From the NCBI RefSeq assembly GCF_014490485.1, contig NZ_JACTVA010000035.1, positions 1 to 59,081 of the forward strand: DNA of 59,081 bases. The letters run 5' to 3'. A model generated the notes under the pieces. It saw only the letters and a list, made by a program, of their open reading frames with translations. It was not told the origin of the DNA and made no database searches. Of this stretch, positions 2,380 to 51,963 are shown piece after piece. The first letter of the stretch is position 1; each line of letters begins with the position of its first letter. This DNA is from Teichococcus aerophilus. Its GTDB lineage: Bacteria; Pseudomonadota; Alphaproteobacteria; Acetobacterales; Acetobacteraceae. Made by a program: the position numbers and the translations under genes.

Positions 2380-2516
2380 TCGTAGAAGAAGATGGGGTCC
2401 GGGGAATTCCTTCCCCGGCCTTCCTTCTCCTGCCCCTCCCGAGCCGTGGCAGGCCGCGCACCGCAAAAATCCCATGAAAAAGATGGCCGGCAGGAATTCC
2501 TTCCCTCGCCGTCCCC
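2380..2516. repeat. Intergenic hairpin element, locus 1 (two right-type arms in direct orientation)
   Basis: The 457-bp gap 2233-2689 holds an arm of the dispersed family at about 2385-2424: AAGATGGGG, a three-base spacer, CCGGGGAATTCCTTCCCCGG, then CCTTCC. It is preceded by GACTCGTAG, matching the inner arm sequence of other copies. A second, degenerate arm in the same direction (AAAAAGATGG then AGGAATTCCTTCCC) is at about 2476-2516. No clear left arm is visible. The rest of the gap shows nothing codable. Confidence 0.75.
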
Positions 2517-2689
2517 TCGCATACTCGCCACCGAGTTCCTGGCATCCGGTTTGCTAGAGCGTGACCGCCCAAGGTGCGAAGCATCGGCCGGGCTTATCGC
2601 GCGGCCAGGCAACGGCCGGCCCTGGCGTCGCCACCTCCGGCGGCCGCCGGGTCCCGGCCTTCGCGCCCGTCTGAAGGAGTGACCACAGC

Positions 2690-3691
2690 ATGACCCGTCG
2701 TCTCACCGTCGCAGCCGCCCAGCTCGGCCCCATCCAGAAGGCGGAGGGGCGCGACGTGGTCGTCGCCCGCCTGGTGCGGCTGATGGAGACCGCGCACAAG
2801 CGCGGTGCCGAAGTCGTGGTGTTCCCCGAGCTGGCGCTGACCACCTTCTTCCCGCGCTGGTACGAGGAAGACATCAACAACGCCGACCATTGGTACGAGA
2901 GCGCGATGCCGTCCAACGAGACGGCGCCGCTGTTCGAGGCCGCGCGGAAGTACAATATCGGCTTCCACCTCGGCTATGGCGAGATCGCCTACGAGGCGGA
3001 CGAGACCGGGGTGGTGCGCAAGCGCCACTTCAACACCGCCATCTACGTGCATCCCTCGGGCGAGGTGGTGCTGAAGTACCGCAAGGTGCACCTGCCCGGG
3101 CACAAGGAATTCGACCCCGCGCGCAAGGTGCAGCACCTGGAGAAGCGCTACTTCGAGGTCGGCAATCTCGGCTTCCCGGTCGTGCGGGCGCCGATCGGCC
3201 AGGCCGGCCCGGTGAATATCGGCATGATGATCTGCAATGACCGCCGCTGGCCGGAATCCTGGCGCGTGATGGGCCTGCAGCAGGTGGAGCTGGTGATGCT
3301 GGGCTACAACACGCCCTCCATCAACCAGGACGCCAAGGGGTTCGAGGCGCATCACCTGCGCGTGGCGCACAGCCATCTCTCCATCCAGGCCGGCTGCTAC
3401 CAGAACGCCACCTTCGGCGTCGCCGTCGCCAAGGCGGGCGTGGAGGATGGGTGCGAGCTGTTCGGCAATTCCATCATCGTCAACCCGCAGGGCCAGATCA
3501 TGGCTGAGGCGACAAGCTGGGATGACGAGCTGATTGTCGCTGATTGCGACCTCGACATGTGCAATCTGGGCCGCACGACGATCTTCAACTTCGCCGCGCA
3601 TCGCCGGGTCGAGGCCTATGGCCGCATCCTGGAGCAGACCGGCAGCGTGGCGCCCGCCGAGTGGGCGCCCGCCGCCAAGGCCGCCGAGTAA
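2690..3691 (+). CDS. N-carbamoyl-D-amino-acid hydrolase (D-carbamoylase)
   Basis: A 333-aa cytoplasmic nitrilase-superfamily enzyme that hydrolyses N-carbamoyl-D-amino acids to the D-amino acid, CO2 and ammonia, the step after a hydantoinase. The catalytic triad is visible: E47 (VFPELALTTFFPRW), K132 (YRKVHLPGH) and C182 (MMICNDRRWPE). FFPRW and CNDRRWPE are typical of D-carbamoylases rather than of general nitrilases or beta-ureidopropionases. Length is slightly above the roughly 305-aa Agrobacterium enzyme, with a few extra residues before the lysine and an Ala/Pro tail. Start ATG 2690 follows GAAGGAG at proper spacing. The pairing with the cyclic amidase at 363 is classic for hydantoin use. 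Confidence 0.9.
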   Translation: MTRRLTVAAAQLGPIQKAEGRDVVVARLVRLMETAHKRGAEVVVFPELALTTFFPRWYEEDINNADHWYESAMPSNETAPLFEAARKYNIGFHLGYGEIAYEADETGVVRKRHFNTAIYVHPSGEVVLKYRKVHLPGHKEFDPARKVQHLEKRYFEVGNLGFPVVRAPIGQAGPVNIGMMICNDRRWPESWRVMGLQQVELVMLGYNTPSINQDAKGFEAHHLRVAHSHLSIQAGCYQNATFGVAVAKAGVEDGCELFGNSIIVNPQGQIMAEATSWDDELIVADCDLDMCNLGRTTIFNFAAHRRVEAYGRILEQTGSVAPAEWAPAAKAAE

Positions 3692-3728
3692 CCGACTAGG
3701 CGCGGCCGGCCGCGGCCGCGAGACGAGA

Positions 3729-3757
3729 CGGAAGCCGGCATGAGCGGCCGGCTTCCG
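3729..3757. terminator. 11-bp hairpin after the carbamoylase gene
   Basis: CGGAAGCCGGC and GCCGGCTTCCG pair perfectly around a 7-base loop, 38 bp after the carbamoylase stop. It has no T-tract, so it may be a leaky or Rho-assisted terminator, or an mRNA-stabilising hairpin between carbamoylase and binding-protein genes. Confidence 0.5.
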
Positions 3758-3800
3758 CGCTGACATGAATTCGCTCCATCACACGCCAAGGGTTTTCGTC

Positions 3801-10086: not shown

Positions 10087-10566
10087 ATGAACGCCGCCCC
10101 CAGCCAGCGGCTGGAGCGGATCGAGCTGCCGGACAGCGCGCCGCTGCCCAGCCCCTATGCCGAGGCGGACCGGACCCAGGCCGTGGCCGACCTGCTGATG
10201 GCCAACCGGTTCGACCCGGAAGGGCTGCCCGGCGGCCCCTATGCGCTGCATCTCTCGCTGCGCGAGGGCCGGCTGATCTTCGACATCCGCGACACCGCCG
10301 ACCAGCCGCTGCACGCGCTGATGCTGGCGCTCGGCCCGTTCCGCCGGCTGATCAAGGACTACCACATGGTGGTCGAAAGCCATGAGCGGGCGGTGACCGA
10401 GGGCGGCAACGAGTCCAGCATCCAGGCCATCGACATGGGGCGGCGCGGCCTGCACAACGAAGGGGCCGAGCTGCTGGCCCGCCGCCTGCACGGCCGCGTG
10501 GAGCTGGATTTCGAAACGGCGCGGCGCCTGTTCACCCTGGTCTGCGCCCTGCACCAGCGGATCTGA
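10087..10566 (+). CDS. UPF0262 family protein
   Basis: About 159 aa from ATG 10087; in-frame ATGs at 10066 and 10072 would overlap the DUF983 gene by 14 or 8 bp. Diagnostic features: RLERIELPD near the N-terminus, LIKDYHMVVESH, AIDMGRRGLHNEGAELL and DFETARRLFTLVCALH at the C-terminus, matching UPF0262 of alphaproteobacteria. No enzymatic function is known. Overlap or close spacing with DUF983 implies co-transcription. A 6-bp hairpin (CCCGCT/AGCGGG, 10572-10587) follows the stop. Confidence 0.88.
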   Translation: MNAAPSQRLERIELPDSAPLPSPYAEADRTQAVADLLMANRFDPEGLPGGPYALHLSLREGRLIFDIRDTADQPLHALMLALGPFRRLIKDYHMVVESHERAVTEGGNESSIQAIDMGRRGLHNEGAELLARRLHGRVELDFETARRLFTLVCALHQRI

Positions 10567-10618
10567 AACCGCCCGCTATAGAGCGGGGGTGGCACGCGTG
10601 CCCCGGAGAGATGGCGTG

Positions 10619-10810
10619 GGAAGGTCGGGGGAGTGAACTCCCCCGAACCCCCTCCTTTTCTCTGTCAGTTTCAGATGTGGCCGCTGTAGTCACGCGTGCG
10701 CCAGGACGGTTTCTCGTGCAGAAGGCCCGCTTCGCCAGCACCTCTTGGATGAACAGAAAGAAAAGGAGTGGGGGTCCGGGGGAGAATTAATTCTCCCCTA
10801 GTCCTGGCCC
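10619..10810. repeat. Intergenic hairpin element, locus 2 (GGGGG subfamily, inverted arms)
   Basis: The left arm (10619-10660) has a perfect 10-bp stem, TCGGGGGAGT/ACTCCCCCGA, then AACCCCCTCCTTTTCTCTG. The right arm (10755-10810) has AAAAGGAGTGGGGGTCC, then the perfect palindrome GGGGAGAATTAATTCTCCCC. The layout is the same as other loci but the stem sequence differs. The element fills the junction between convergent UPF0262 and DUF4153 genes. Confidence 0.75.
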
Positions 10811-10852
10811 GACCAATCGGTGCAACGCTGCTACCCAGCGTCTCTCGCGCCT

Positions 10853-12553
10853 CTAGTCGCAGTAGGGCGTATAGCCGCTCGGCGGCAGGCGGCGGCCGGC
10901 GACCTCGACCTCCTGCCAGCGCGGCGGCAGCAGCCGCAACTCGCCGGCCAGGATGCCGGCTGCTACCTCCCGGCCGCAATTGCCGGTGTTGAAGGAGCCG
11001 GTGCGCCGCCACTCGCCTTCCATCTGCTGGAACACCAGGAAGCTCTGCCCGGCAGGGCCGACCAGCCACGCCCGCTGCCCGTTGCCTTCCAGGTCAACCG
11101 GCGTCGCGACGCAATCGGTGATGCGGCAGAACGCGGACTGGCCCTGCATGGACGCCACGATTCCGGGCGGGATCTCCGCCTCGGCCGGGTAGGGCACCAG
11201 GCGCGGCCGCGAGGGTGTCTCCACGACGGAATCCGGCGGCGGCTCGGCCTGGCGCCGCGCTGCCGTGGCGATGGCCGGGTCGGGGTGCTGCGTCAGCGCC
11301 TGCAGGGCCCGCCGGCCGTAGCGGCGGGAAAAATCCTGCAGGAAGCGAAAGTCGAAGGCCTCCACCGGCACCTTGCCATCCAGCAGCCGGGCTACCTGGC
11401 TGTTGACGGCCAGCCGGTTGGGGTCGGCCAACGGAGTGTTCAGCCCCAGCACCACCAAAACGGCGATGCCGGCGACTGCGATGTTGGCGGGCTCCAGCAG
11501 CCGCATCCGCGGCCGCAGGGCCGCCAGCGCGTAGGGCACGGCATAGCAGGCCAGCACCAGGACCACTGCGACGCTGATCACCCGGTTCCGCGTCAGCCCG
11601 TATTGGCCAATGCGCAGCCACAGGCCCCAGGCGGCCAGCGCCACCAGCACCGGCAGCACCCAGCAGGCCAGCCGGGCGGACCAGCGCAGCAACGGCAGCG
11701 CCCCGGCATGGCCGTCCTGGTGCACGGCGTTGATCAGCACCACCAGCGTGGCGGCGGCCGTCATCAGCAGCGGCCCGCCATAGCCCGTTTCCCACAGCGG
11801 GGTCAGCCCGGTGAAGGGCAGCGCCAGCAGGAAGCAGGTGGTCAGCCCCGCCAGCAGCGGCGTCAGCCAGCCCAGCAGCGTCAACCCCAGGATGCGCACC
11901 CCACGTGTCAGCCGGTCCTGCGCATCGGCCAGGTGCAGCGCGGCAGCGCCCACTGTGGTGGTGACGACGATGACGAACGGGGCCTCCTCCGCCAGCCGGT
12001 CCAGCCACCCGATGCCGATGACCTGGAACAGCGAGGCCCCCAGCCGGTACACCGCCCAGAAGGCGGCGACAAAGGCGATGCCCAGCAGCAATTGAATGGC
12101 GGAGCGCCACGCGGCCTCGAAACAGGCGCCATAGCCCGGCCACCAATGGCGGGAGGCGTCGGCGGCGGCGACCAGGTTATGCGCCACGAACAGCATCGGC
12201 AGCAGGGACAGCATGAGTTGCAGCGACGGCTCGGCCAGGCCGCCGCTGCTATTCTGCCGCAGGTCGTGCGAGCCCATCAGCACAATCACCACCCCGGCCG
12301 TCAGCACCCAGCCGGCCAATACGCGGCGGCGCAGATGGCCCAGCCCCAGCAGCACCGTCAGCGGCAGGAAGGCTACCAGCAGGCAGAGCAGCGTAAACCC
12401 CTTGGGGTTGCGCAGCAGCCAAGGTGCCGGGTCGTCCGCCAGCAGGCGCCACAGCCCGTAGCCTGCCACGCCCTGCAACAGGCCGATGATCATGCGGGCG
12501 GCGGCGATGCCGGCCGCCGGTGCGGGCGCGGGCCGCGAGTCGCTGTCTGACAT
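10853..12553 (-). CDS. DUF4153-type polytopic membrane protein
   Basis: 566 aa. About eleven to twelve hydrophobic helices occupy residues 15-390, with a His/Trp-containing loop (ADASRHWWPGYG) and DNRV-like positions typical of DUF4153 proteins. The C-terminal 150 residues form a soluble, probably periplasmic domain with four cysteines (FCRITDC, NTGNCG, YCD). Function is unknown. ATG 12553 starts MSDSDSRPAPAPAAG just before the first helix. It points away from mtnA; the 166 bp between them must hold both promoters. Confidence 0.75.
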   Translation of the reverse strand: MSDSDSRPAPAPAAGIAAARMIIGLLQGVAGYGLWRLLADDPAPWLLRNPKGFTLLCLLVAFLPLTVLLGLGHLRRRVLAGWVLTAGVVIVLMGSHDLRQNSSGGLAEPSLQLMLSLLPMLFVAHNLVAAADASRHWWPGYGACFEAAWRSAIQLLLGIAFVAAFWAVYRLGASLFQVIGIGWLDRLAEEAPFVIVVTTTVGAAALHLADAQDRLTRGVRILGLTLLGWLTPLLAGLTTCFLLALPFTGLTPLWETGYGGPLLMTAAATLVVLINAVHQDGHAGALPLLRWSARLACWVLPVLVALAAWGLWLRIGQYGLTRNRVISVAVVLVLACYAVPYALAALRPRMRLLEPANIAVAGIAVLVVLGLNTPLADPNRLAVNSQVARLLDGKVPVEAFDFRFLQDFSRRYGRRALQALTQHPDPAIATAARRQAEPPPDSVVETPSRPRLVPYPAEAEIPPGIVASMQGQSAFCRITDCVATPVDLEGNGQRAWLVGPAGQSFLVFQQMEGEWRRTGSFNTGNCGREVAAGILAGELRLLPPRWQEVEVAGRRLPPSGYTPYCD

Positions 12554-12719
12554 GCGGCGGATGCTGCCGCCCGGTTCAAGCTCTGTCACATCAGAGGATC
12601 GCGCGCAGAGCTCACCTTTGCGATGGGCATGACGAAGCGCGCGAAAACACCCTATATGCCGGGCCTGAGACCCCCTGCCCCGCCCGCACCGCGCGGCCCT
12701 CCACGGACGGAGCCTTGCC

Positions 12720-13823
12720 ATGAAGATCGACGGCGTCGCCTATCGCAGCGTCTGGGTAGACGAGGATGGCTGGTCCGTCCGTATCCTGGACCAGACCCGC
12801 CTGCCCTGGACCGTGGACATCCTGCGCCTGACGGATGAGCAGCAGGTGGCGCACGCCATCAAATCCATGCAGGTGCGCGGCGCACCGCTGATCGGCGCCG
12901 TCGCCGCCTACGGGCTGGCGCTGGCATTGCGCCGCGATGCCTCCGACGCCGCGCTGGAAAGCGTCGCCGCCATGTTGGGCGAGACGCGGCCGACCGCGAT
13001 CAACCTCCGCTGGGCCCTGGCCCGCATGCTGGCGGCGCTGCGCCCGGTGGCCCCGGCCGCGCGCGCCCAGGCTGCCTACGATGCCGCCGCCGCCATCGCG
13101 GAGGATGACGTCGAGACCTGCCGCAGCATCGGCCAGCACGGCCTGCCGCTGATCCAGGACATCGCCGCCCGCAAGCCCGGGCAGCCGGTCAATATCCTGA
13201 CCCACTGCAACACCGGCTGGATCGCGACGGTCGATTACGGCACGGCGCTCTCCGTCATCTACCAGGCGCACGATGCCGGCATTCCGGTGCATGTGTGGGT
13301 GGACGAGACCCGCCCGCGCAACCAGGGCTCGGCGCTGACGGCGTGGGAGCTCGGCAAGCACGGCGTGCCGCATACCGTGATCGCCGACAATGCCGGTGGT
13401 CACCTGATGCAGCATGGGCAGGTGGACATCGTGCTGGTGGGCACCGACCGGGTGACGCGCCATGGCGATGTGGCCAACAAGATCGGTACTTACCTGAAGG
13501 CGCTGGCCTGCCACGACAACAACGTGCCCTTCTGGGTGGCGCTGCCGCACTCCACGCTGGACATGTCCGTGCGGGACGGCCTGCGCGAGATCCCGATCGA
13601 GGAGCGCGCCGCCGAGGAAGTGCTGACCGTGACGGGCCAGACGGCCGATGGCAAGGTGGTGACGGTCCGTACCGCCGCCCCCGGCAGCGCCGGCGCCAAC
13701 CCGGCGTTCGACGTGACGCCGGCCCGGCTGGTGACGGGGCTGATCACCGAACGCGGGCGCTGCGATGCCTCCGAAGCCGGGCTGCTCGGACTGTATCCGG
13801 AGTTCGCGGCGAAGGCGGCCTGA
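12720..13823 (+). CDS. mtnA: S-methyl-5-thioribose-1-phosphate isomerase
   Basis: A 367-aa soluble enzyme of the methionine salvage pathway that isomerises 5-methylthioribose-1-phosphate to 5-methylthioribulose-1-phosphate. Diagnostic motifs: MQVRGAPLIGAVAAYG (substrate loop), RPTAINLRWAL, LTHCNTG with the catalytic cysteine, VWVDETRPRNQGS, and IVLVGTDRVTRHGDVANKIGTY with the catalytic aspartate. Length matches the family. It is monocistronic here; other mtn genes are not in the window. Downstream, 16 bp after the stop, a hairpin element begins. Confidence 0.95.
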   Translation: MKIDGVAYRSVWVDEDGWSVRILDQTRLPWTVDILRLTDEQQVAHAIKSMQVRGAPLIGAVAAYGLALALRRDASDAALESVAAMLGETRPTAINLRWALARMLAALRPVAPAARAQAAYDAAAAIAEDDVETCRSIGQHGLPLIQDIAARKPGQPVNILTHCNTGWIATVDYGTALSVIYQAHDAGIPVHVWVDETRPRNQGSALTAWELGKHGVPHTVIADNAGGHLMQHGQVDIVLVGTDRVTRHGDVANKIGTYLKALACHDNNVPFWVALPHSTLDMSVRDGLREIPIEERAAEEVLTVTGQTADGKVVTVRTAAPGSAGANPAFDVTPARLVTGLITERGRCDASEAGLLGLYPEFAAKAA

Positions 13824-13838
13824 CGGGGCACGGTTGAT

Positions 13839-14089
13839 GGAAGGCTGGGGAAGCAATTCCCCAGCCCCCATCTTCTTTTCTTCGCGTTGGGCTGTGCGAG
13901 AGGCCATCCGTGCTTTGGTGAGGCGGCTGCCGGTTGCTGCGGCAGGCAGTGCCGGCTGAAGGCGTCGCCGCCGCCCGATACCCGTCTCGGCCCAGCCCAG
14001 CCCTCTTTCAACCGAACGACCCTCCCCCACAGCCACGCCACACAACTCGCAAAAAAGAAGGGGCCCGGGGAATTCCTTCACCGGCCTTC
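13839..14089. repeat. Intergenic hairpin element, locus 3
   Basis: The left arm (13839-13886) has stem CTGGGGAA/TTCCCCAG with loop GCAA, then CCCCCATCTTCTTTTCTTCGCG. The right arm (14041-14089) has AACTCGC, a run of six A, GAAGGGGCC, then CCGGGGAATTCCTTCACCGG and CCTTC. The two arms are inverted with about 155 bp between them. The element fills the convergent junction of mtnA and the LysR gene. Confidence 0.85.
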
Positions 14090-14119
14090 TCCCACCGCGG
14101 CATGAAAAGCGGCGCACCC

Positions 14120-14998
14120 TCAGCCCGCGTCCTGCAACGCCTCCGACATCACCCGCAGCCCGCGGTCCAGCACCTTTTCCTTCCGCATCACCAGCACGAG
14201 TTCCCGCGAGGTCGCCGGACGTAGCGGGCGGCGTTCGGCGCCCGGCACGTCCTCCGGCAGCGCCAACCCAGGGAGGACGGACGCACCAAGGCCGCCGCCC
14301 ACCAGCACCTTGATGGCCTCCACGCTGCCCAGTTCCATGATTGGCTTCGGTGCCACCCCGGCCTTGCGGAACCAGGCGTCGACGATCCCGCGCGTATCGC
14401 CGCCGGCCTCGTAGAGAATCAGCGGCAGCCCCGCCAGTTGGGAAGGGGTCAGCGGCCCTTCCCCCAGGCTGCCGCGCGGCACCAGCGCCACGAGGCCGTC
14501 CCGCCGCAGCGGGATGCGCGCCAGGCTGCGGCTGAGGCTGCGCGGCATCGTGACCAGGCCGGCATCCAGGCTGCCTTCCTCCACCCGGCGCAGCATCTCC
14601 GGCGTGTTGCCGATGACGACCAGGATCTCCAGCCCCGGCATGCGCCGACGCGCTGCCTCCAGCACCGGTGGCAGCAGGTGGATGCAGGCGGTGGCCCCGG
14701 TGCCCAACCGCACCCGGCCGAAATCGCCGGAGCGGCAGGCGAGCGCGGCGGTGGTGACTTCGATGGCGGCGGCCTGGGCGCGGCGGGCGGGTTCCAGGAT
14801 GGCCAGGCCGGCGGCGGTCGGCACCACGCGTCCCTCCGCCCGGTCCAGCAAGCGGGCGCCAAGGATGCGCTCCATCTCCCGCAACTGCTGGCTGGCGGCG
14901 GGCTGGGTCAGGTTGAGGGAGCGCGCGGCTTCCGTGACGCTGCCGAGATCGATGGCGGCGATGAAGGTGCGAAGCTGGCGCAACGTCGGGGTGTCCAT
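14120..14998 (-). CDS. LysR-family transcriptional regulator
   Basis: 292 aa. The N-terminal winged helix-turn-helix (residues 1-60) includes LRQLRTFIAAIDLGSVTEAA and LNLTQPAASQQL. The effector-binding domain follows (about 90-290). Target and ligand are unknown. The divergent neighbour is the GNAT-MFS pair at 15084; LysR regulators often control the divergent gene, so those are candidate targets. The 85-bp intergenic region contains AACTTATTCTGATGCGGC and ATTCAGAAAACTTTC, an imperfect inverted AAACTT/GAATAAG-type pair that could be an operator. Confidence 0.9.
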   Translation of the reverse strand: MDTPTLRQLRTFIAAIDLGSVTEAARSLNLTQPAASQQLREMERILGARLLDRAEGRVVPTAAGLAILEPARRAQAAAIEVTTAALACRSGDFGRVRLGTGATACIHLLPPVLEAARRRMPGLEILVVIGNTPEMLRRVEEGSLDAGLVTMPRSLSRSLARIPLRRDGLVALVPRGSLGEGPLTPSQLAGLPLILYEAGGDTRGIVDAWFRKAGVAPKPIMELGSVEAIKVLVGGGLGASVLPGLALPEDVPGAERRPLRPATSRELVLVMRKEKVLDRGLRVMSEALQDAG

Positions 14999-15083
14999 AA
15001 GGCAAACTTATTCTGATGCGGCGCATTCAGAAAACTTTCTTTCCGATACGGCCTGGCAGCCCGACCATGGGCCGGCACCCTCC

Positions 15084-15638
15084 ATGGCCAGATCGAACGT
15101 GACCCAGACCACCATCCGCCCCGTCGCTGACGCCGATCTCGGCGCCATCACCGCCATCTACCGCCACCACGTGCTGTACGGCAGCGCCTCCTTCGAGACG
15201 GAACCACCGGCGGAGGCGGAGATGGCCCGGCGCCGGTCCGCGCTGCTGGACCAGGAGTACCCGTATCTGGTGGCCGAGCGCGGCGGCGACGTCCTTGGCT
15301 ACGCCTATGCCGGTGCCTATCGGCCGCGCGTGGCCTACCGCAACACGGTGGAGGATTCGGTCTATCTGCGGCCGGATGCCTTTGGGCTCGGCATCGGCTC
15401 CATGCTGCTGGCGGCCCTCATCGAGACCTGCGAGGCACGCGGCTTCCGGCAGATGATGGCGGTGGTGGGGGATAGCGCCAACGCATCCTCCATCCGGCTG
15501 CATCAGCGCCATGGCTTCCGCTGCGTCGGCACGTTGGAGACCGTCGGCTACAAGCATGGGCGATGGCTGGATTGCGTGCTGTTCCAGCGCCGCCTCGGCG
15601 CCGGCGCCACCACGCCCCCACAGCCCCGCGATGCCTGA
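15084..15638 (+). CDS. GNAT N-acetyltransferase, phosphinothricin-acetyltransferase-like
   Basis: 184 aa. The start TIRPVADADLGAITAIYRHHV, then YGSASFETEPP, then LGYAYAGAYRPRVAYRNTVEDSVYL and GLGIGSMLL (acetyl-CoA loop) are characteristic of the PAT/YncA branch, which acetylates phosphinothricin-like compounds, methionine sulfoximine or similar amines. ATG 15084 starts MARSNVTQTTIRP; a longer in-frame extension into the LysR promoter is not supported. It overlaps the MFS gene by 8 bp, so the two probably form a resistance/export unit. Confidence 0.88.
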   Translation: MARSNVTQTTIRPVADADLGAITAIYRHHVLYGSASFETEPPAEAEMARRRSALLDQEYPYLVAERGGDVLGYAYAGAYRPRVAYRNTVEDSVYLRPDAFGLGIGSMLLAALIETCEARGFRQMMAVVGDSANASSIRLHQRHGFRCVGTLETVGYKHGRWLDCVLFQRRLGAGATTPPQPRDA

Positions 15639-16809
15639 GAACCCAGTACCGGTCCGCCGCCTGGCTTGGGCACTGGGGGTCAACCAGCTGCTCTCCTGGG
15701 CCACCAGCTTCTATGTGCCGGCTGTCATCGCCGGGGCGGCGGCGGCGGAAATGGGCGTCTCCACCGCCCTGCTGATGGGCGGGTTTTCCTGCGCGCTGCT
15801 GATCACCGGCCTCTGCGCGCCACATGTTGGCCGATGGATCGGCCAGCATGGCGGCCGCTTCTCATTGGCGGCCAGCACGGTGGTGCTGGGGCTGGGCTTG
15901 CTGCTGCTGGCCTGGGCACAAGGTGTGGGCGGCTGGTATCTGGGCTGGGCGGTGCTCGGAATCGGCATGGCGCTGGGGCTGTACGATGCCGCTTTCGCCA
16001 CGGCCGGCACCTTGCTCGGCGTTGGCGTGGCACCGGCCATCACCGGCATCTCGCTGCTCGGCGGCTTTGCCAGCACGCTGGGCTGGCCGGCCGGCATGGC
16101 GCTGCTCGGCCTGCTGGACTGGCGCGGCGTGCTGGTTGTCTATGCCCTGGTGCAGTTGGCCGTGAACCTGCCACTGGTGCTGTGGGCCGTACCCCAAGCG
16201 CCGCCGCAGCCGCCCGCCCCGGCCGCCGCCACAACCGGCCCAACGGCCGCCCACCGTCTCAGGGCGGTGATGCTGGCTTGCATGGGCAGCTTCTTCACCC
16301 TCCGCTGGTTCATCACCTCCGCCATGGCGGCGCATGTCCTGCCATTGATGGCCGGGCTCGGCCTCAGCCCCGGCCAGGCTCTGGCCGCCGCCATGCTGAT
16401 CGGCCCCGGCCAGGTGGCAGGGCGCCTGCTGGAATGGCAGTTGGCGCCGCGCATCGGCACATTGTGGCGGGCGAGGCTGGGGGCGCTGCTGTTTCCAGCG
16501 GGCGCATTGCTGCTGCTCTCCGGTAGCCCGTTTGCCGCCTTCGGCTTCGCGCTGCTCTATGGGATGAGCAACGGCATCCTCACCATCAACCGCGGTACGC
16601 TGCCCATGCTGGTCTTCGGCCCCAACGGCTACGCCGCCCTGCTCGGCTGGATCGCGCTGCCGGTGCTGCTGGCCCAGGCCGCCGCACCCGCCGTGGCGGC
16701 ACCCTTCATTGCCGCACTGCCCGCGACCGGCCTGCTGGTCGGCTCCGGCTGCGTCGCCGGGCTCGCCGCGTTTCTGCTGTTGCCATTGCGGGCCCGGGTG
16801 ACCGGGTGA
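15631..16809 (+). CDS. MFS transporter
   Basis: 392 aa with twelve predicted membrane helices in two halves joined by a Pro/Ala-rich loop (about residues 188-208). A conserved YxP...G pattern in helix 1 (SFYVPAVIAG) and G-rich helix 5 (LLGGFASTLGWPAG) are typical of major facilitator proteins of the oxalate/formate- or cyanate-like type. The start ATG overlaps the GNAT stop, implying translational coupling. The substrate is unknown; coupling to a PAT-like acetyltransferase suggests efflux of a toxic amine or its acetylated form. Confidence 0.85.
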   Translation: MPENPVPVRRLAWALGVNQLLSWATSFYVPAVIAGAAAAEMGVSTALLMGGFSCALLITGLCAPHVGRWIGQHGGRFSLAASTVVLGLGLLLLAWAQGVGGWYLGWAVLGIGMALGLYDAAFATAGTLLGVGVAPAITGISLLGGFASTLGWPAGMALLGLLDWRGVLVVYALVQLAVNLPLVLWAVPQAPPQPPAPAAATTGPTAAHRLRAVMLACMGSFFTLRWFITSAMAAHVLPLMAGLGLSPGQALAAAMLIGPGQVAGRLLEWQLAPRIGTLWRARLGALLFPAGALLLLSGSPFAAFGFALLYGMSNGILTINRGTLPMLVFGPNGYAALLGWIALPVLLAQAAAPAVAAPFIAALPATGLLVGSGCVAGLAAFLLLPLRARVTG

Positions 16810-16825
16810 CAGGGGGATGGAGGCA

Positions 16826-17069
16826 GGCCGGGGAAGGAATTCCCCGGACCCCATCTTTCCTTTTTTCGAGTTTTGCCAAGTAGGCGTTGAGAGGGCGGGT
16901 CTGAGAGACGGCTGGGTGCGCCGGAGGTTCTAGACCTCTGGCGACTGACGGTTCAGTCCTTGTGGGCCCATTTTGAATATCAGCTGCTGCGTCCGCTCTC
17001 ATTCCTACGGCGCCACCCCAACTCCCAGAAAATAAAGAAGGGGTCCGGGGAATTCCTTCCCCGGCCTTC
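16826..17069. repeat. Intergenic hairpin element, locus 4 (complete, interior in plus orientation)
   Basis: The left arm begins 16 bp after the MFS stop: AGGCCGGGGAAGGAATTCCC, then CCGGACCCCATCTTTCC and TTTTTTCGAGTTTTG (16826-16875). The right arm (17016-17069) is its inverse, starting CCAACTCCCAGAAAATAAAG. The interior carries GGTTCTAGACCTCTGGCG, ACTGACGGTTCAGTCC and GGGCCCATTTTGAATATCAG, shared with loci 5 and 6. No gene lies in 16810-17245. Confidence 0.9.
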
Positions 17070-17245
17070 ACCCCCCGCCCCAAGCCCACGCGTGCCCTGC
17101 ACCGAAGGATATTTTTTGCGGCAAACGTCGGCCTTAGGGACATTTCCTTCCCGTTTCCCTTCGGATGTTGCACGCTTCTTGCTGGCAATCGGCGCTGGCC
17201 AGCGCCACCATCGCGGCGAACTTGGCCGCCAGGAGTCTTTGAACG

Positions 17246-18088
17246 ATGCGTTTCCTTGCCTGCCTTCTTGCCGCGCCGCTGGCCTTCGGGCTGTTGGCGA
17301 CCCCTGCTTCCGCGCAGCAGCCGCTGCGGACGGCGGTGGACGGCACCTTTGCCCCGCATGCCTTCCCCAAGTTGGATGGCGGCGTGCAGGGCTTCAACGT
17401 GGATCTGTTCACCGAGGTCGCGCGCCGTCTCGGCCGGCCCATCACCATCGACAGTGCCAGCTTCTCCGGCCTGGTGCCTGCTTTGAATGCAGGCCGCTAC
17501 GACTTCCTGGCGGCGCCGGTGACGGTCACGGCGGAGCGGGCGGAGAACCTGCTGTTCACCGAGGGCTACCTGTACACCGCCTTCCAGTTCGGCATCCGCA
17601 AGGGCACCACGCCGATCACCAGCCTGGAGGAACTGCGCGGCAAGGTCATCGCCGTGAACAAGGGTTCCGCCTACGACGCGTGGGCGCAGGCGAACGCGGC
17701 CAAGTACGGCTTCACGGCTCAGACCTTCGAGAGCCAGCCGGATGCCGTGCAGGCGGTGCTGGCCGGCCGCGCCTATGCCACGCTCGGCGGCAACACCGTC
17801 ATCCGCTACGCCGCCACGCGCACGCCGAACTTCGTGCCGGACTTCGTCATCAAGGAGACCCGCGCGCATTGGGGTGCGCCGTTCCGCCGCGACAATGCGG
17901 AACTGCGCAATGCGGTGGAGAACGTGCTGGAATGCATGAAGAAGGACGGTAGCCTGGCGGCGCTGTCCGAGAAGTGGTTCGGCGTGAAGCCCGGCCCGGA
18001 CGATGCCGAGAACACGGTATTCCCCGGCTATGGTGTTCCCGGCCTGGCCGGCTACGACGCCACGCCGCACGAGCCGCGCTGCAGCTAA
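17246..18088 (+). CDS. Amino-acid-type ABC transporter substrate-binding protein (SBP_bac_3)
   Basis: 280 aa with a classic Sec signal peptide (residues 1-24, cleavage after ATPASA). It has the family-3 binding-protein fold: FAPHAFPKLDGGVQGFNVDLFTEVARRLG near the N-terminus, LSGLVPALNAGRYDFLAAPVTVTAERA-like middle (here SFSGLVPALNAGRYD), and LRGKVIAVNKGSAYDAW. The protein binds a polar amino acid or similar small ligand in the periplasm. ATG 17246 follows GCCAGGAG. No permease or ATPase gene is nearby. A palindromic mini-element starts right after its stop. Confidence 0.9.
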   Translation: MRFLACLLAAPLAFGLLATPASAQQPLRTAVDGTFAPHAFPKLDGGVQGFNVDLFTEVARRLGRPITIDSASFSGLVPALNAGRYDFLAAPVTVTAERAENLLFTEGYLYTAFQFGIRKGTTPITSLEELRGKVIAVNKGSAYDAWAQANAAKYGFTAQTFESQPDAVQAVLAGRAYATLGGNTVIRYAATRTPNFVPDFVIKETRAHWGAPFRRDNAELRNAVENVLECMKKDGSLAALSEKWFGVKPGPDDAENTVFPGYGVPGLAGYDATPHEPRCS

Positions 18089-18252
18089 GAGACTATTTCA
18101 GAAGTCTGCTGGCTAAAGGCGCGGCCGGAGTTTTTCGTGCCAGCACGGAGGTGGCTTGGACCAATGCAGGGACATTGGGCCAAGCCGCCGACACATCTGG
18201 TGCGGAAAAGACCGCCGCCGCGCCTGACCCGGCAGGCTTTTGAAACAGACGC
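18089..18252. mobile_element. 164-bp palindromic mini-element (MITE-like)
   Basis: The stretch from the stop of the binding-protein gene to 18252 folds on itself almost end to end. The ends are GAGACTATTTCAGAAGTCTG and the imperfect inverse ending TTTTGAAACAGACGC. The centre is GGCTTGGACCAATG, loop CAGGGA, CATTGGGCCAAGCC (one mismatch). Intervening parts (AAAGGCGCGGCC against CGCGCC) also match. There is no reading frame of note. It is probably a non-autonomous transposable element of unknown parent; a target duplication is not clear. Confidence 0.7.
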
Positions 18253-18366
18253 CAAATCGGCCGCTTGCGTGAAGGCCCCGCGGCAGCGAGCGCCGCTGGG
18301 CCGGACGGCTGGGGAACCCGGCGCGCCCCACAGCGTTTGTCCTTCATGCAACGGAAGGAGGACGCC

Positions 18367-18669
18367 GTGCCCCGTGGTGACAAGTCTGCCTATACCGACA
18401 AGCAGAAGCGCAAGGCCGAGCATATCGAAGAAGGCTACGAGGCCCGCGGCGTTCCGGAAGGCGAGGCCGAGCGGCGCGCCTGGGCGACAGTGAACAAGGA
18501 CGAGGGCGGCGGGAAGAAGAGCGGTTCCGGCCGTGGGCATCCCTCCAGCAACGCCGCGTCCCACAAGGGCGGCAAGGCTGGTGGCCAGGCCTCGGCCTCC
18601 CGCTCCGCCGCCGCGCGTTCCGCCAGTGCCAAGAAGGCGGCGGCAACACGCAAGGCCCACGCCAGCTAA
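18367..18669 (+). CDS. Small basic ChaB/plasmid-stabilisation-like protein
   Basis: 100 aa, starting PRGDKSAYTDKQKRKAEHIE, then EGYEARGVPEGEAERRAW and ATVNKDEGGGKKSGSG, a pattern frequently named plasmid stabilisation protein in proteobacteria and ChaB-like. The tail is rich in Lys, Ala and Ser, with AAARSASAKKAAATRKAHAS resembling histone-H1-type DNA-binding tails. The GTG start at 18367 is favoured over an upstream ATG because AAGGAGG lies 6 bases before it. The function is unproven; a DNA-associated role in the cytoplasm is inferred from the basic tail. Confidence 0.85.
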   Translation: MPRGDKSAYTDKQKRKAEHIEEGYEARGVPEGEAERRAWATVNKDEGGGKKSGSGRGHPSSNAASHKGGKAGGQASASRSAAARSASAKKAAATRKAHAS

Positions 18670-18715
18670 GCCAGCGGAACAGGCGGCCCCGTTATCGCTA
18701 AAGGCCAGAGGGATC

Positions 18716-18740: not shown

Positions 18741-18754
18741 TCCCCCGTGGCTGC

Positions 18755-21820: not shown

Positions 21821-21841
21821 TGGGTTTGTGGCGTTAGAGGA

Positions 21842-22085
21842 GAAGGCCGGGGAAGGAATTCCCCGGACCCCTTCTTTTTTCTGCGCGTTTGGCGTGGCGC
21901 TGTCGGACTGAAAGCGGACGCGGCTTGATGATTCTAATGGGCCACGCGGGCTGAAATCTCAGTCGCAGGAGGTCCAGGATCTCTGGCGCATTCAGCCGTT
22001 TCTCAGGTGCGCTCCCTTCGACAGCCACGCCCAAAAAAACTCGAGAAAGGAGAAGAAGGGGTCCGGGGAATCCCTTCCCCGGCCT
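21842..22085. repeat. Intergenic hairpin element, locus 5 (complete, interior in minus orientation)
   Basis: The left arm (21842-21900) has AAGGCCGGGGAAGGAATTCC, then CCCTTCTTTTTTCTGCGCG and TTTGGCGTGGC. The right arm (22021-22085) has AGCCACGCCCAAAAAAACTC, then GGGGTCCGGGG and the stem. The arms match over about 60 bases. Read on the minus strand, the interior (GACCTCCTGCGACTGA, GTGGCCCATTAGAATCATCA) resembles the plus-strand interior of locus 4. The gap 21821-22185 holds no gene. Confidence 0.9.
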
Positions 22086-22185
22086 TCGCCCCAAGAAGCA
22101 ATCCTGATTTGACAGCAAGAAGCGGAGTTCCAGCATCCGGCTGCTCCGCCACCCTGGCCAGACCGCATCCAAAGGTCTTCGCCCC

Positions 22186-24923: not shown

Positions 24924-25170
24924 GGAAGGCCGGGGAAAGAATTCCCCGGCCCCCATCTTTCTTCTGTGAGTCTTTCGGGCGTGACTGCCGATGCGTCAGC
25001 CTTTTGAAGCCAACCTGGGCGCATGTCAGGGGTCCATGACCTCCGGCAGCTGAGGGTTCAGTTCAGGCGGCCCTTTATATTCTTCGTGGACCCCGCCTCA
25101 GTCCTGAAGCCTGACGCCAAACTCTCGGAAAAAAGATGGGGTTTCAGGGGAATTCCTTCCCCTGACCTTC
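24924..25170. repeat. Intergenic hairpin element, locus 6 (complete, plus orientation)
   Basis: The left arm (24924-24985) has stem CCGGGGAA, loop AGAA, TTCCCCGG, then CCCCCATCTTTCTTCTGTGAG. The right arm (25114-25170) has ACGCCAAACTCTCGG, then AAAAAAGATGGGG and stem CAGGGGAA/TTCCCCTG. The second base pair differs between arms yet pairs in each. The interior GACCTCCGGCAGCTGAGGG, TTCAGTTCAGGCGGCCC is like locus 4. It lies between convergent SDR and EamA genes; the rest of 24755-25204 shows nothing else. Confidence 0.9.
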
Positions 25171-32456: not shown

Positions 32457-32699
32457 GGAAGGTCAGGGGAAGGAATTCCCCTGAAACCCCATCTTTTTCT
32501 GCGAGTTTGGTGTGGGGCTTCAGGGCTGGCAGGCGCGACCTTGATGAATATCAAAAGCCATAGCCCTGCGCGTGGTCATTGGAGGCCACAGATCTTCGCC
32601 GCCGCCCCGGCCAAGGCTTGAGGCTGACGCTTCCACAGCCACGCCCCAAAGACTCGCAAACAAAAGATGGGATCCGGGGCATTCCTTCCCCGGCCTTCC
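32457..32699. repeat. Intergenic hairpin element, locus 7 (complete, minus orientation)
   Basis: The left arm (32457-32516) has stem CAGGGGAA, loop GGAA, TTCCCCTG, then AAACCCCATCTTTTTCTGCG and AGTTTGGTGTGGG. The right arm (32638-32699) has CCACGCCCCAAAGACTCGCA, then AAAAGATGGGATCCGGGGC. Read on the minus strand, the interior contains GATATTCATCAAGG and CGCGCCTGCCAGCCCTGA, shared with locus 8. The element fills the convergent arsC/EamA junction. Confidence 0.9.
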
Positions 32700-32770
32700 T
32701 ACCCCGAGCCAAAATGTCGATCCGCGCCTGCGCCTGATGCACGCCGCCGGGTCATGCGGCCGGCGGCCAG

Positions 32771-42540: not shown

Positions 42541-42557
42541 TTTGGGGGTAGATGCAA

Positions 42558-42750
42558 AAGGCTGGGGAAGGAATTCCCCAGACCCCATCTTTTTTCTGCG
42601 AGTTAGGGGGCAGGGCCGGCAGGCGCAGCTTGGATATTTTTACAAATCCGCGCCGACAGAACCGTTGGCTGTCACGCTACTAGGCGCCGACCTCCTCTCC
42701 AAAAGCTTGAAGCAAAAAGATGGGGCCCGGGGAATTCTTTCCCCGGCCTT
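42558..42750. repeat. Intergenic hairpin element, locus 8 (minus orientation)
   Basis: The left arm (42558-42614) has stem CTGGGGAA, loop GGAA, TTCCCCAG, then ACCCCATCTTTTTTCTGCG. The right arm (42714-42750) has AAAAAGATGGGGCC, then CCGGGGAATTCTTTCCCCGG. The interior GGCAGGGCCGGCAGGCGCAG and GGATATTTT matches locus 7 read on the same strand. The element ends 5 bp before the diguanylate-cyclase stop, in a convergent junction. Confidence 0.9.
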
Positions 42751-48621: not shown

Positions 48622-49781
48622 CGCTGGTCTATATCGTCGCCGGGGAAGCCTCTGGCGACCTGCTGGGGGCCCGGCTGATCGCCGCCCTGCGTGACGCGCG
48701 CCCGGACCTGGTCTTCGCCGGCGTCGGCGGCGACCGCATGGCCGAGCAGGGTTTTGTCAGTCTCTTCCCCATGCGGGAACTCGCCGTGATGGGGTTGGCG
48801 GAGGTGCTGCCCAATATCCGCCGCCTCTCCCAGCGGCTGACGCAGACAGTGGCCGATATCGAAGCGCGCCGCCCCGCCGTGGTCGTCACCATCGACAGCC
48901 CCGGCTTCGGCCTGCGCGTGGCGGCGCGGGTTAGGCCCAAGGGCTTCACCATCCTCCACTACGTCGCCCCCCAGGTCTGGGCCTGGCGCCAGGGGCGGGT
49001 GAAGCGCATCGCCAAGGAAGTCGACCGCATCCTGGCCCTGCTGCCCTTCGAGGCGCCCTTCTTCGAGAAAGCCGGCATCCCGGTCGATTTCGTCGGCCAT
49101 TCCATCCTGGAATCCGGCGCCGACCAGGGCGACGCCGCCCGCTTCCGCGCCCTCCACGCCATCGCGCCGGATGAGCGCATCGTCCTCGTCATGCCCGGCA
49201 GCCGCCGCAGCGAGGTCGGCCGCCTGCTACCCACCTTCGGCGCCGCGCTGAAGCTGGCCGCCAACCGCGTGCCGAAGCTGCGCCCCGTCGTCCCGCTCGC
49301 CGGGCCGGTGGAGGAGAGCGTCCGCGCCGTCGCCGCCGGCTGGCACCCCGCGCCCATCCTGGTGCGCGACATCGCCGAGAAATACGACGCCTTCGCCGCC
49401 GCCGAGGCCGGCATCATCAAATCCGGCACCTCCTCGCTGGAGGTGGCACTGGCCGGCGTGCCCATGGTGGTGGGCTACCGCGTCAACCCGATCACCGCCG
49501 CCATCGTGCGCCGGCTGGTCAAGGTGCAGTATGTCAGCATCGTCAACCTCCTCGCCAAGCGCAGCATCATTCCGGAATTGCTGCAGGAGGATTGCACGCC
49601 CGAAAAGCTCTCCGCCGAACTGGTCCGCCTGCTGACGGACCCCGCCGCGGCGACAGCCCAGCGCGACGGCTTCGCCAGCGTGTTCGACATGCTACGGCCG
49701 GAGGGCGGCGTGCCCAGCGCGGCAGCGGCCGCGTCGGTGCTGCGGGCGATCGAGGGGCGGTCGGCAGAAGCGCCGAGTTAA
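48618..49781 (+). CDS. lpxB: Lipid-A-disaccharide synthase
   Basis: 387 aa, GT19 glycosyltransferase of lipid A synthesis. It joins UDP-2,3-diacylglucosamine and 2,3-diacylglucosamine-1-phosphate on the inner membrane. Motifs: VAGEASGDLLGARL (N-terminal Rossmann), GVGGDRM, VTIDSPGFGLRVA, YVAPQVWAWRQGR, VMPGSRRSEVGRLLPTF and GIIKSGTSSLEVAL. It is not beside lpxA/lpxD/fabZ here but translationally coupled to a nitrilase gene. A hairpin-element arm begins right after the stop. Confidence 0.96.
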   Translation: MTLVYIVAGEASGDLLGARLIAALRDARPDLVFAGVGGDRMAEQGFVSLFPMRELAVMGLAEVLPNIRRLSQRLTQTVADIEARRPAVVVTIDSPGFGLRVAARVRPKGFTILHYVAPQVWAWRQGRVKRIAKEVDRILALLPFEAPFFEKAGIPVDFVGHSILESGADQGDAARFRALHAIAPDERIVLVMPGSRRSEVGRLLPTFGAALKLAANRVPKLRPVVPLAGPVEESVRAVAAGWHPAPILVRDIAEKYDAFAAAEAGIIKSGTSSLEVALAGVPMVVGYRVNPITAAIVRRLVKVQYVSIVNLLAKRSIIPELLQEDCTPEKLSAELVRLLTDPAAATAQRDGFASVFDMLRPEGGVPSAAAAASVLRAIEGRSAEAPS

Positions 49782-49840
49782 GGTTGGGGGCATGAACTCC
49801 CCCAAGCCCCCGTCTTTTTCTGCGAGTTTTGAGGTGGGTC
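49782..49840. repeat. Intergenic hairpin element, locus 9 (left arm only)
   Basis: Immediately after lpxB: GGTTGGGGGCATGAACTCCC, then CCCAAGCCCCCGTCTTTTTC and TGCGAGTTTTGAGG. The 7-bp stem is TTGGGGG/CCCCCAA, the GGGGG subfamily like locus 2. The inner part GAGGTGGGTCC has an inverse GGACCCACCTT at 49949-49959, but no outer right arm is found; the element looks half lost. Confidence 0.75.
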
Positions 49841-49961
49841 CAGATGCCGGATGCGGCGCCTGTAGCCTTGGAACGTGGCCGTCGCCGGTGAATCAGCGGG
49901 AAATCACGCGGCCGGCGAGCTCGGGTTTCGCAGGGCATGATACGCGGCGGACCCACCTTGA

Positions 49962-49998
49962 AGCTTATCTGCTGAAAAGCGAATGGAGCGGATAAGCT
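49962..49998. terminator. 12-bp imperfect hairpin in the lpxB/racemase gap
   Basis: AGCTTATCTGCT and AGCGGATAAGCT pair except for one U-G position, loop 13 bases. An alternative stem GGAGC/GCTCC overlaps it. It may end lpxB transcription or be part of the degenerate element. The rest of 49841-50175 shows nothing recognisable. Confidence 0.45.
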
Positions 49999-50175
49999 CC
50001 GATCTCGTTTGATCGCGTGATGCGCGCCTTCGCTTGATTCAACCGCAGGCAATTGTGCCATCCATTGGATGACCCCCTGGTCCTGACGCGATTCTGCAGA
50101 GGTCTGCCTTCCCGGAAATCGGCCCGCCGGCCATCAAGTCAGTCCAATGAAGGCCGAGGAAAACACGCCCCAGCG

Positions 50176-50910
50176 TCACCCCTTCAACATCGCCGCCAAT
50201 TCGGCCGACAGCCCGCTGCTATCCCGGCCCGAGAGCGGCGCCAGGCTGCCGGCACGCGGCTTCGGCAGGTTCAGCGCCACCAGCGCCTCGGCCTGCTTCA
50301 CCGCGCAGGCAATGCCGTCCAGCAACGGCACGGGGGACCGGTCCGCCAGCCGGGCCGCCATGCCGGCCAGCGCGGCACCGCCCAGCACCACCGCATCGGC
50401 GCCGCCTTCCACCAGGCGGTGGATGCCTGCCAGCACCGCCGCCTCGGCCCCAGCCGGGTCGCGCACCGCCTCCTGCGGCGTCATCGCCACGCCATCCAGG
50501 CCGGACAGGCGGGAGGACAGGCCATGGCGGCCAATCAGTTCCCGGTAGGTCTCCACCCCACCCAGCGTCAGCAGGCCGAAGCGCGCCGCCACCATGCAGG
50601 CGGTCAGGCACGCAGCCTCGGTCATGCCGACCACCGGGCAGGGCATCAGCTGGCGTGCGGCTTCCAGCGCGGTGTCGTGGCTGACCGCCAGCACCACCGC
50701 CTGCACCTGCCCGCTATGCCCGGCCAGCAACTCCAGCAACGCATGCCCGGCGATGATGTTCTCAGCGCGAGAGGAGATGACCGCCGGGCCGAAGCGGGGA
50801 GTTGCCGGCACGATCTCGGTGCCCGGCGCCGCCGCATCCCGCGCCGCCGCGGCGCAGAGCTGCGTGATCGCCTCGGTCGTGTTGGCGTTCGCGACCAGGA
50901 TGCGCATCAT
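50176..50910 (-). CDS. Asp/Glu/hydantoin-racemase-like protein lacking both catalytic cysteines
   Basis: 244 aa, starting MRILVANANTTEAITQLC, the family N-terminus. The two cysteine positions are replaced: the first region reads AVSHDTALE where the paralogue at 8799 has ACVSDPAID, and the second reads VLGGAALAG where that protein has ILGCAGMAG. Fold features remain (VPATPRFGPAVISSRAENI; GLLTLGGVETYRELI). It probably does not racemise by the usual mechanism; it may bind ligand only or catalyse a different reaction. It is coupled to the TauD-like gene (ATGA overlap). Confidence 0.82.
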   Translation of the reverse strand: MMRILVANANTTEAITQLCAAAARDAAAPGTEIVPATPRFGPAVISSRAENIIAGHALLELLAGHSGQVQAVVLAVSHDTALEAARQLMPCPVVGMTEAACLTACMVAARFGLLTLGGVETYRELIGRHGLSSRLSGLDGVAMTPQEAVRDPAGAEAAVLAGIHRLVEGGADAVVLGGAALAGMAARLADRSPVPLLDGIACAVKQAEALVALNLPKPRAGSLAPLSGRDSSGLSAELAAMLKG

Positions 50911-51647
50911 GCGCCCAGCCCCGCGAAGGCACCGGTGGCCAGGCGGGAATCCACCTTGCCCCGCAGCGCCAGCGCCTCCAGCCCCGATGCCGGGTCCGCC
51001 CAGACCAGGAAGGGGTTCAGCGCCAGCACATCCCCCGGCCGCAGCGGCAGGCTGAGCGCCAGGCCCGGCGTCTCCAGCGCCGCATCCAGCGCGGCCAGCG
51101 CTGCGGCAGGCGTGGCGCGGGCGATCGCCTCCCGCCGCAGCCAGGCGGAAAACACGCCGCTGCTGACAGCAAAGACCGGCAGGTCCAGATCCTCCCCATG
51201 TGGCAGCGGGCGGTAGAACACCTCCAGCTGGGCGCGGTCCGCCTTCATCAGGGCGTTGTGCACGGCGGCGGCGGACCGCAGCGTCACGGTCGTCGGCTGC
51301 CGGCACAGTAGCAGCAGGATATCGCTGGCACCCTCCGCCAGGCTGCCGGCCGGTACGGTCATCCTCTCGCCCATCCGCTCGCCCAGAGTGGCCAGCAGTG
51401 CCGCGCCATCCTCCGGCGCCGGCAGGCCGCGCAGCAGCGCGAAGCCCTTGCCATGCGCCAGCCGCTCCGCCACGCGGGACAGCAAGGGGTCCAGCACGGG
51501 CCTCGGCTCGCCCGGCGGCGCCAGGGTTTCCGCGGCGGCCTCGGCCCCCAGCGGCACCATCCAGTCGGCGGGGGAGAGCGCCTCCGCGGTCCAGAGATGC
51601 GCGCCACTCTCAGGTGCGATGCGGCGGGGGGTCGGGGTGTCTGTCAT
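50907..51647 (-). CDS. Degenerate TauD/clavaminate-synthase-like protein
   Basis: 246 aa. Resembles the Fe(II)/2-oxoglutarate dioxygenase TauD/TfdA family: HGKGFALLRGLPAPEDGAALLATLGERMG (about 60-90), AVHNALMKADRAQLEVFYRPLPHG (about 130-153) and LSLPLRPGDVLALNPFLVW near the C-terminus. The family's FHTD iron-binding region reads SLAEGASDILLLLC here, with no HxD, and the distal histidine/arginine segment is also missing. Catalysis by the usual mechanism is therefore unlikely. ATG 51647 is placed at MTDTPTPRR; upstream sequence is element-derived. Similarity is by eye, so the call is moderate. Confidence 0.65.
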   Translation of the reverse strand: MTDTPTPRRIAPESGAHLWTAEALSPADWMVPLGAEAAAETLAPPGEPRPVLDPLLSRVAERLAHGKGFALLRGLPAPEDGAALLATLGERMGERMTVPAGSLAEGASDILLLLCRQPTTVTLRSAAAVHNALMKADRAQLEVFYRPLPHGEDLDLPVFAVSSGVFSAWLRREAIARATPAAALAALDAALETPGLALSLPLRPGDVLALNPFLVWADPASGLEALALRGKVDSRLATGAFAGLGA

Positions 51648-51733
51648 CGTCAGGCAGGCTAGCAGGCGGCCCCGGCCGCCGTCAGCCACACATGCGTCAG
51701 TGGCGGTGTGCACCCAGGCCTTTGCGGAAGCTA

Positions 51734-51963
51734 AGGAAGGTTGGGGAAGGAGTTCCCCAGGCCCCTTCTTTTTCTGCAGTTTTGGCAGCTCTCCCCGGGC
51801 TGTAGGGGCGTGCCCTGGTGATGGAAACAGGCACGAGAGCTGGACCATCGGTCCGCGCACCTCGTTGCCGCCCCGCTTCAGATCGAAACACCTGCTTCGC
51901 AGTCGCACCAGAGCACTCGAAAAAGCAAAGGAAGGGGATCGGGGAATTCTTCCCCGGCCTTCC
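51734..51963. repeat. Intergenic hairpin element, locus 10
   Basis: The left arm (51734-51790) has TTGGGGAAGGAGTTCCCCAG, then GCCCCTTCTTTTTCTGCAG. The right arm (51914-51963) has CACTCGAAAAAGCAAAGGAA, GGGGATC, stem CGGGGAA/TTCCCCG and CCTTCC. Unlike most loci it lies between two divergent start sites (TauD-like and M20), so it cannot simply be a terminator pair. The rest of 51648-52167 shows no gene; an AGGAG site precedes the M20 ATG. Confidence 0.85.

Follow-up and report, generated by a model that had tools for sequence, protein, structure and literature searches.

Short repeats scattered between genes are known in several forms in bacteria. SPRITE, BOX and RUP are short repeats of Streptococcus pneumoniae (PMC3049150), and the account of these pneumococcal repeats offers tolerance of insertions as an argument for their placement at gene 3′ ends. 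ERIC, one of the miniature inverted-repeat transposable elements (MITEs), is reported in 711 copies in Photorhabdus luminescens (PMC10969869). REPIN and REP sequences are palindromes with hairpin ends (PMC3116915), and a 2013 survey lists Acetobacteraceae among the families without CGTC repeats (PMC3733652). Here we describe a family of repeats in Teichococcus aerophilus (Acetobacteraceae), noted in a stretch of 59,081 nucleotides (contig NZ_JACTVA010000035.1, positions 1 to 59,081; hereafter the window). The closest known kinds are the SPRITE, REPIN and MITE repeats, and we file it as a new family of an already known, REPIN/MITE-like kind. It is a repeated unit with arms paired in inverted orientation, whose hairpins covary within each arm, which is gained or lost at orthologous junctions, and which is placed behind stop codons. 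These are probably MITE/REPIN-like non-autonomous mobile elements with terminator-like ends.

The family is abundant throughout the genome, a draft assembly in 140 contigs. The core-hairpin 16-mer GGGGAAGGAATTCCCC, with at most one mismatch, has 848 matches in 5.66 Mb (431 forward and 417 reverse), so that the high density claimed for the window by the initial annotation holds genome-wide. The detailed analysis used 1,186,785 bases, or 21% of the genome; hits guided part of this choice, and the sample is about 1.6 times richer in pattern hits than the whole. In this 1.19-Mb sample the arm profile at E < 0.01 found 346 arms, forming 151 inverted pairs and 44 singles, and 0 matches on the reversed sequence. 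Adjacent arms at most 520 bases apart are almost all in inverted orientation (+/-, 150; -/+, 2; +/+, 7; -/-, 6). Multiplying the 195 sample loci by the ratio of pattern hits (848/288) gives an extrapolated total of about 574 loci. The density of arms across contigs ranges from 0.5 to 6.3 per 10 kb; contigs C1, C53, C2 and C35 have a lower element density than the others, and are perhaps a younger replicon or plasmid.

A genome with 70% G+C invites the suspicion that such palindromes arise by chance or as an artefact of composition. The controls refute this, and we give it practically no weight: the 848 matches to the 16-mer compare with 0 in the reversed genome, far from counts no higher than chance, and in the window the 20-mer CCGGGGAAGGAATTCCCCGG, with at most three mismatches, has 13 matches against 0.02 expected from shuffles. 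The sub-motif CTGCGAGTTTGG on its own is not enriched in the window (9 matches, 5.35 expected).

The ten intergenic loci first reported for the window all exist, as judged by the 20-mer search and by the arm profile, which finds 18 arms there. The common double-hairpin plan attributed to them holds for seven complete inverted pairs (194-252 bp); the other three loci are incomplete or degenerate. The features are as follows (E values from the arm profile).

2378..2424, minus strand: orphan right arm (hairpin and pyrimidine tract), E 9.5e-14
2474..2514, minus strand: degenerate second right arm, E 1.9e-3
10619..10671, plus strand: left arm of a degenerate element between the UPF0262 (+) and DUF4153 (-) genes, E 1.1e-7
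about 10752..10806, minus strand: degenerate right arm of the same element, found by eye and missed by the arm profile
13839..14090: complete element between mtnA-like (IF-2B family, +) and LysR-type (-) genes, arms E 2.7e-11 and 1.7e-12
16822..17069: complete element 3′ of an MFS gene, arms E 8.9e-14 and 3.4e-14
21841..22087: complete element 3′ of a GNAT acetyltransferase gene, arms E 1.3e-16 and 3.2e-12
24924..25170: complete element, arms E 3.1e-15 and 2.7e-11
32458..32699: complete element about 71 nt past the stop of a minus-strand EamA-family gene, arms E 3.5e-11 and 4.8e-13
42557..42750: complete shorter element filling a convergent gap (gene ends at 42540 and 42756), arms E 9.0e-16 and 2.5e-13
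49780..49828, plus strand: left arm only, overlapping the lpxB stop codon, E 6.4e-6
51735..51963: complete element, classed as between divergent genes, arms E 6.8e-11 and 1.2e-9

The locus at 2380 thus consists of two right arms and no left arm. The element at 13839..14090 was entered as tandem in the class counts given below, the gene finder having missed the LysR gene at 14120.

The unit is about 120-280 bp long, with two inverted end modules around a structured middle that often contains a third hairpin. Measured between outer ends, the 151 pairs have a median length of 248 bp; 83 lie at 240-256 bp, 8 are below 200 and 28 above 300. Each end module is a GC hairpin followed inwards by CCCC and a U or pyrimidine tract. 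From the outside in, the consensus arm reads as a purine-rich flank, GAAGG, the hairpin CCGGGGAA-NGAA-TTCCCCGG, ACCCC[T/A]TC, a T/C tract and CTGCGAGTTTGG; there follow the middle, which holds the hairpin CGCCGGAGGTC/GACCTCCGGCG, and the mirror-image arm. The outer flanks are purine-rich on both sides. Conservation was measured on 66 elements of the main subfamily, from 106 of that size, of which 90 were oriented. In blocks of 20 columns its mean is 0.91-0.94 at the end and central hairpins and 0.75-0.91 in the remaining blocks of the element. In some arms, in two genera, the bases past the terminal hairpin are swapped for another palindrome of the TCAAACCTATAGGTTTGA or AAACGTATACGTTT type (C51 55746-56245, C51 34930-35194, and C24 24767 and 68007 in this genome; L256, L260 and L265 in G067, a genome of another genus). 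Several element ends have in common a motif near GATCGACATTCGGC, 10-30 bp farther out (at about 24895-24915 in the window, and in the regions of C13 14170, C13 91450 and C97 64338), which is perhaps another repeat or a preferred site.

The hairpins are maintained within each arm. The outer stem pair beside GGGG is Watson-Crick in 129 of 153 arms, against 77 expected, and the next pair in 132, against 125; the same columns compared between arms show identity close to expectation (33 of 53, 31 expected; 50 of 53, 48 expected). In the 295 of 331 arms that could be parsed, by a procedure that takes the best-pairing centre, stem pairs 1-6 are near-invariant, while pair 7 is standard in a fraction of 0.95, against 0.54 expected, with GC, CG, AT and TA all occurring. 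Arms from other species behave alike at pair 7 (42 of 48 parsed; 0.95 standard, 0.48 expected). Stem pairs 10-14 outside the hairpin, in the unbulged register, show no clear excess pairing, and the outer extension therefore has no covariation support there. A covariance model of the arms retained only 4 base pairs, because hairpins of differing stem length misalign.

We considered whether the two arms pair with each other in a long stem, as the consensus does when folded as RNA. This was rejected: across the 66 elements the two arms of an element resemble each other no more than random arms do (68.8 and 68.3, standard deviation 0.64) and do not covary. Since pairs covary within arms and not between them, each end appears to be kept as a hairpin of its own, and the long stem is not maintained. 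The suggestion that this is an RNA-structured repeat is supported, as RNA or as single strand, by the covariation inside each arm. A family of RNA genes or RNA regulatory elements, transcribed for their structure and not mobile, would agree with how strongly both strands of the consensus fold (z -11 and -13) and with the conserved central hairpin. It fits poorly with the long stem, which lacks covariation, with the orthologous comparisons described next, where an element is shared in 0 of 13 occupied cases, and with Rfam, where the window has 0 matches at the gathering threshold; we consider it very unlikely. One element submitted to Rfam gave as its best match a weak one to ar35 (25.9 bits, threshold 45). 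The Rfam search of the window thus gives no match at threshold to a family already named, and in the literature searched on Roseomonas extragenic palindromes and MITEs, and on MITE bidirectional terminators, we found no description of this one.

Comparison of orthologous junctions shows gain or loss between species. In 120 comparisons, which rest on a gene-finder run that mis-stranded some window genes, 107 junctions are empty in both genomes, 11 (representing 8 junctions) are occupied in this genome only, 2 in the relative only and 0 in both, so that 13 of the 13 occupied comparisons differ. In the seven comparisons seen at sequence level the gaps differ by roughly an arm, an element or more. 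The element at 21841..22087 is missing from the orthologous junction in the relative locus L061. In G006, whose proteins are 87-89% identical, two genes overlap by alignment; here a 158-bp element and 32 further bases stand between them. The arm at the lpxB 3′ end has no counterpart at E < 0.01 behind lpxB in 15 loci from relatives (the sequence of L194 stops too soon to judge). The remainder of the gap downstream of lpxB contains an unrelated inverted repeat (window 49960-50020, GCTTATC...GATAAGC region), and in the relative locus L198 this gap is filled by another sequence. In the window at 10566-17246, the UPF0262, mtnA-like and SBP3 genes, which lie close together in relatives, are separated by additional DUF4153 and LysR-MFS genes; the elements at 10619, 13839 and 16822 border these added genes, as seen in the window only.

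The core pattern is present in 16 of 17 genomes of the genus and in 0 of 24 genomes of other families. It occurs in 5 of 17 genomes from other genera of the family, four of these with just 1-3 matches, which is near the level of the control (single hits in three genomes). The arm model, in a survey with strict filters and at most 37 candidates scored per genome, matches 15 of 150 Acetobacteraceae genomes (10 of 102 genera), 13 of them outside the genus and two inside. The idea that the repeat is characteristic of its lineage therefore holds for the core pattern within the genus, whereas the family as a whole is wider and patchy in Acetobacteraceae. Stretches of G006, G007, G002, G009 and G003 carry inverted pairs with the same plan and other stem letters; those of G016, G014 and G001 carry single arms only, and 20 kb of G012 carries none. 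The prevailing form in G067 is compact and has another palindromic middle; 339,500 bases of this genome gave 49 arms and 14 pairs. A copy lies between virion-protein-like and tail-protein-like genes on a phage-like IMG/VR metagenome contig (L228 7800-7927). This copy, and the patchy distribution with its variable copy number, further support mobility. Just two plasmid records have arm-sized matches, both from Pseudoroseomonas cervicalis. In one relative (L057 2970-3070) a shorter palindrome with T tracts and without the terminal hairpin stands directly behind a stop codon, and is weakly like the inner arm.

The best gene calls, which recover 17 of 18 Pfam-supported genes in the window and were used for the class counts, place 0 of 195 loci inside a called gene by midpoint; a second gene-finder run also gave 0 and a poorer gene finder 1 of 108, so the statement that none lies inside genes holds with the best calls. 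The two other runs show the same placement trend, though one mis-stranded some window genes. By junction, 183 of the 195 loci could be classed, the other 12 being at stretch ends. In this hit-enriched sample an element is present at 79 of the 150 convergent junctions, at 77 of the 673 tandem ones and at 14 of the 147 divergent ones (Fisher p 3e-26, convergent against tandem). The genome-wide share of occupied convergent junctions is probably lower, perhaps about a third, because the stretches examined are hit-rich. Paired elements lie at a median of 26 nt from gene 3′ ends (n = 200; 126 at 40 nt or less), and in tandem junctions the element is nearer the 3′ side in 52 of 64.

This placement raises the possibility of a dedicated or co-opted bidirectional terminator, in which each arm is the intrinsic terminator of the preceding gene and the family has taken the place of native terminators at many convergent ends. 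The occupancy of convergent junctions and the short distances to stop codons are what such a role would produce. So are several convergent gene pairs nearly filled by the element, with just a few bases left beside it, and the single arms of G067 (20 of 21 classed), 9 of 11 of which, among those with the outer end toward a gene 3′ end, lie at 1-7 nt. When folded, the consensus arm gives a stem with a bulge, closed by GGAAGG/CCUUCU and extending as far as the U tract, but this is one of four typed arms; the other three have a spacer ahead of the tract, and the outer stem pairs 10-14 lack excess pairing as noted above. A strict terminator scan of window positions 13001-33000 flagged no arm (12 terminators found, 9.0 expected, one of them mid-element at 16822). 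At 64 tandem loci the arm facing incoming transcription shows no advantage in conservation over the other arm, whether in bits (p 0.90), stem (p 0.35) or T content (p 0.74), a result unchanged with other gene calls, although young copies would hide such a difference. Equal preservation of the arms whatever the gene orientation is expected if both ends serve mobility, or if the copies are too recent for a difference to show. Among single arms in tandem junctions neither orientation is preferred (7 and 10 here, 5 and 7 in G067), and the element between genes that overlap in G006 also counts against a terminator role. Placement at 3′ ends can be explained without selection, because insertions behind stop codons are tolerated, as argued for the pneumococcal repeats (PMC3049150); tolerance alone predicts it. 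We therefore regard a dedicated terminator as rather unlikely, and termination as likely a side effect rather than the driver. Insertion of elements into pre-existing terminators was also considered and rejected, since complementarity of the flanks beyond the element ends is not significant.

Several observations weigh against our interpretation of the elements as mobile. No convincing target-site duplication was found in 59, 58 or 143 elements, ungapped or gapped; the gapped test gave a slight excess with 100-base flanks only (15.5, against 15.1 with a standard deviation of 0.16), and none clear with 15-70 bases. Y1_Tnp, the domain of RAYT and IS200/IS605 transposases, is absent from this genome and from seven element-bearing genomes, and in 17 genomes of the genus it is represented by one weak 36-position fragment (G005); control genomes were positive throughout. 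IS110 is absent from this genome. Matches to DDE_Tnp_1 (12) and rve (4) exist; the arms are missing from the loci around all 16 (the arm search there gave only two matches, at E 2.3). The search of this genome covered five transposase families, the run with PF04986 (Y2_Tnp) being uninformative, its control silent. Multi-copy transposase genes were not found in the 1.19-Mb sample, though the draft assembly collapses such copies. One candidate for an autonomous parent, C66 27023-27777 (754 bp), is the only place in the 1.19-Mb sample where two unpaired arms form a wide-spaced pair; it contains no transposase-like frame by eye. Two such pairs found in 0.34 Mb of G067 enclose genes that look ordinary, again by eye. 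Single inverted arms flank whole genes in G067 at L257 5705-8313 and L274 9242-9880. The most similar pair of copies in the set compared is 90.7% identical, so that very young copies are missing there and activity may be past. As to the MITE-like character proposed for the repeat, the copy number, the conserved unit with inverted ends and the presence or absence at orthologous junctions stand, while a target-site duplication and a resident transposase with the same ends were not found.

We also considered a genuine REPIN/REP family in which the RAYT has disappeared or has diverged beyond the reach of the Pfam model. This would account for the pair of inverted hairpins separated by a spacer, for the extragenic copies in their hundreds and for the presence of both doublets and singlets, as described for REPINs (PMC3116915). 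Against it are the Y1_Tnp searches, with their positive controls, and the longer unit with its conserved middle. Read by eye, the consensus GAAGG-hairpin-ACCCC also has neither GTAG nor CGTC as a tag at the foot of the hairpin. We consider it unlikely.

On the basis of these observations, we hypothesise that the family is one of non-autonomous mobile elements, the unit being copied or moved in trans by a machine that would recognise each end as a folded hairpin, as has been proposed for RAYTs and REPINs, and that would leave no target duplication. This mover may have been lost, or may belong to an unexamined family. The surviving copies would be those that disturb least, namely those past stop codons and in convergent junctions. 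A transcript arriving at such a copy, from whichever side, would meet a hairpin and a U-rich tract, and for this reason many copies probably double as transcription terminators, as a by-product and not as the reason for their existence. A bolder version, which we think doubtful, is a portable mobile double-terminator: its mover would recognise hairpins and be neither Y1/RAYT nor any family checked, and it would have colonised many convergent gene ends, provide termination genome-wide and swap hairpin cassettes at its ends.

In the hit-enriched stretches one repeat family stands at roughly every second convergent gene end, and genome-wide probably at fewer. It offers a test case for how REP/MITE-like elements spread when neither a RAYT nor an evident parent transposase is found, and for whether a genome comes to rely on such elements as its terminators.

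The family shares with SPRITE, BOX and RUP that it consists of short non-coding repeats that spread in the past, and with SPRITE in particular its resemblance to terminators and its position close to the 3′ ends of genes and in convergent junctions; no target duplication could be demonstrated for SPRITE either (PMC3049150). SPRITE is AT-rich, with one 18-bp duplex and a U-rich tract, and 30 are tabulated there (PMC3049150); the present family, set apart by description, has two inverted GC hairpin ends, a larger unit and several hundred copies in an unrelated lineage. It resembles REPIN/REP sequences in its inverted palindrome doublets, extragenic position, many copies and hairpin ends (PMC3116915), and differs in the missing RAYT gene and GTAG/CGTC tag, in its conserved middle with a third hairpin and in its U tracts. 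Like the MITEs Correia, ERIC and Chunjie it is small, non-coding and intergenic, with inverted ends and a high and variable copy number (PMC10969869); in contrast to them, no target duplication or parent transposase was found, and the two ends of a copy do not covary with each other. In its behaviour the family is close to REPINs and MITEs, yet it failed the RAYT and tag test for the former and the duplication test for the latter.

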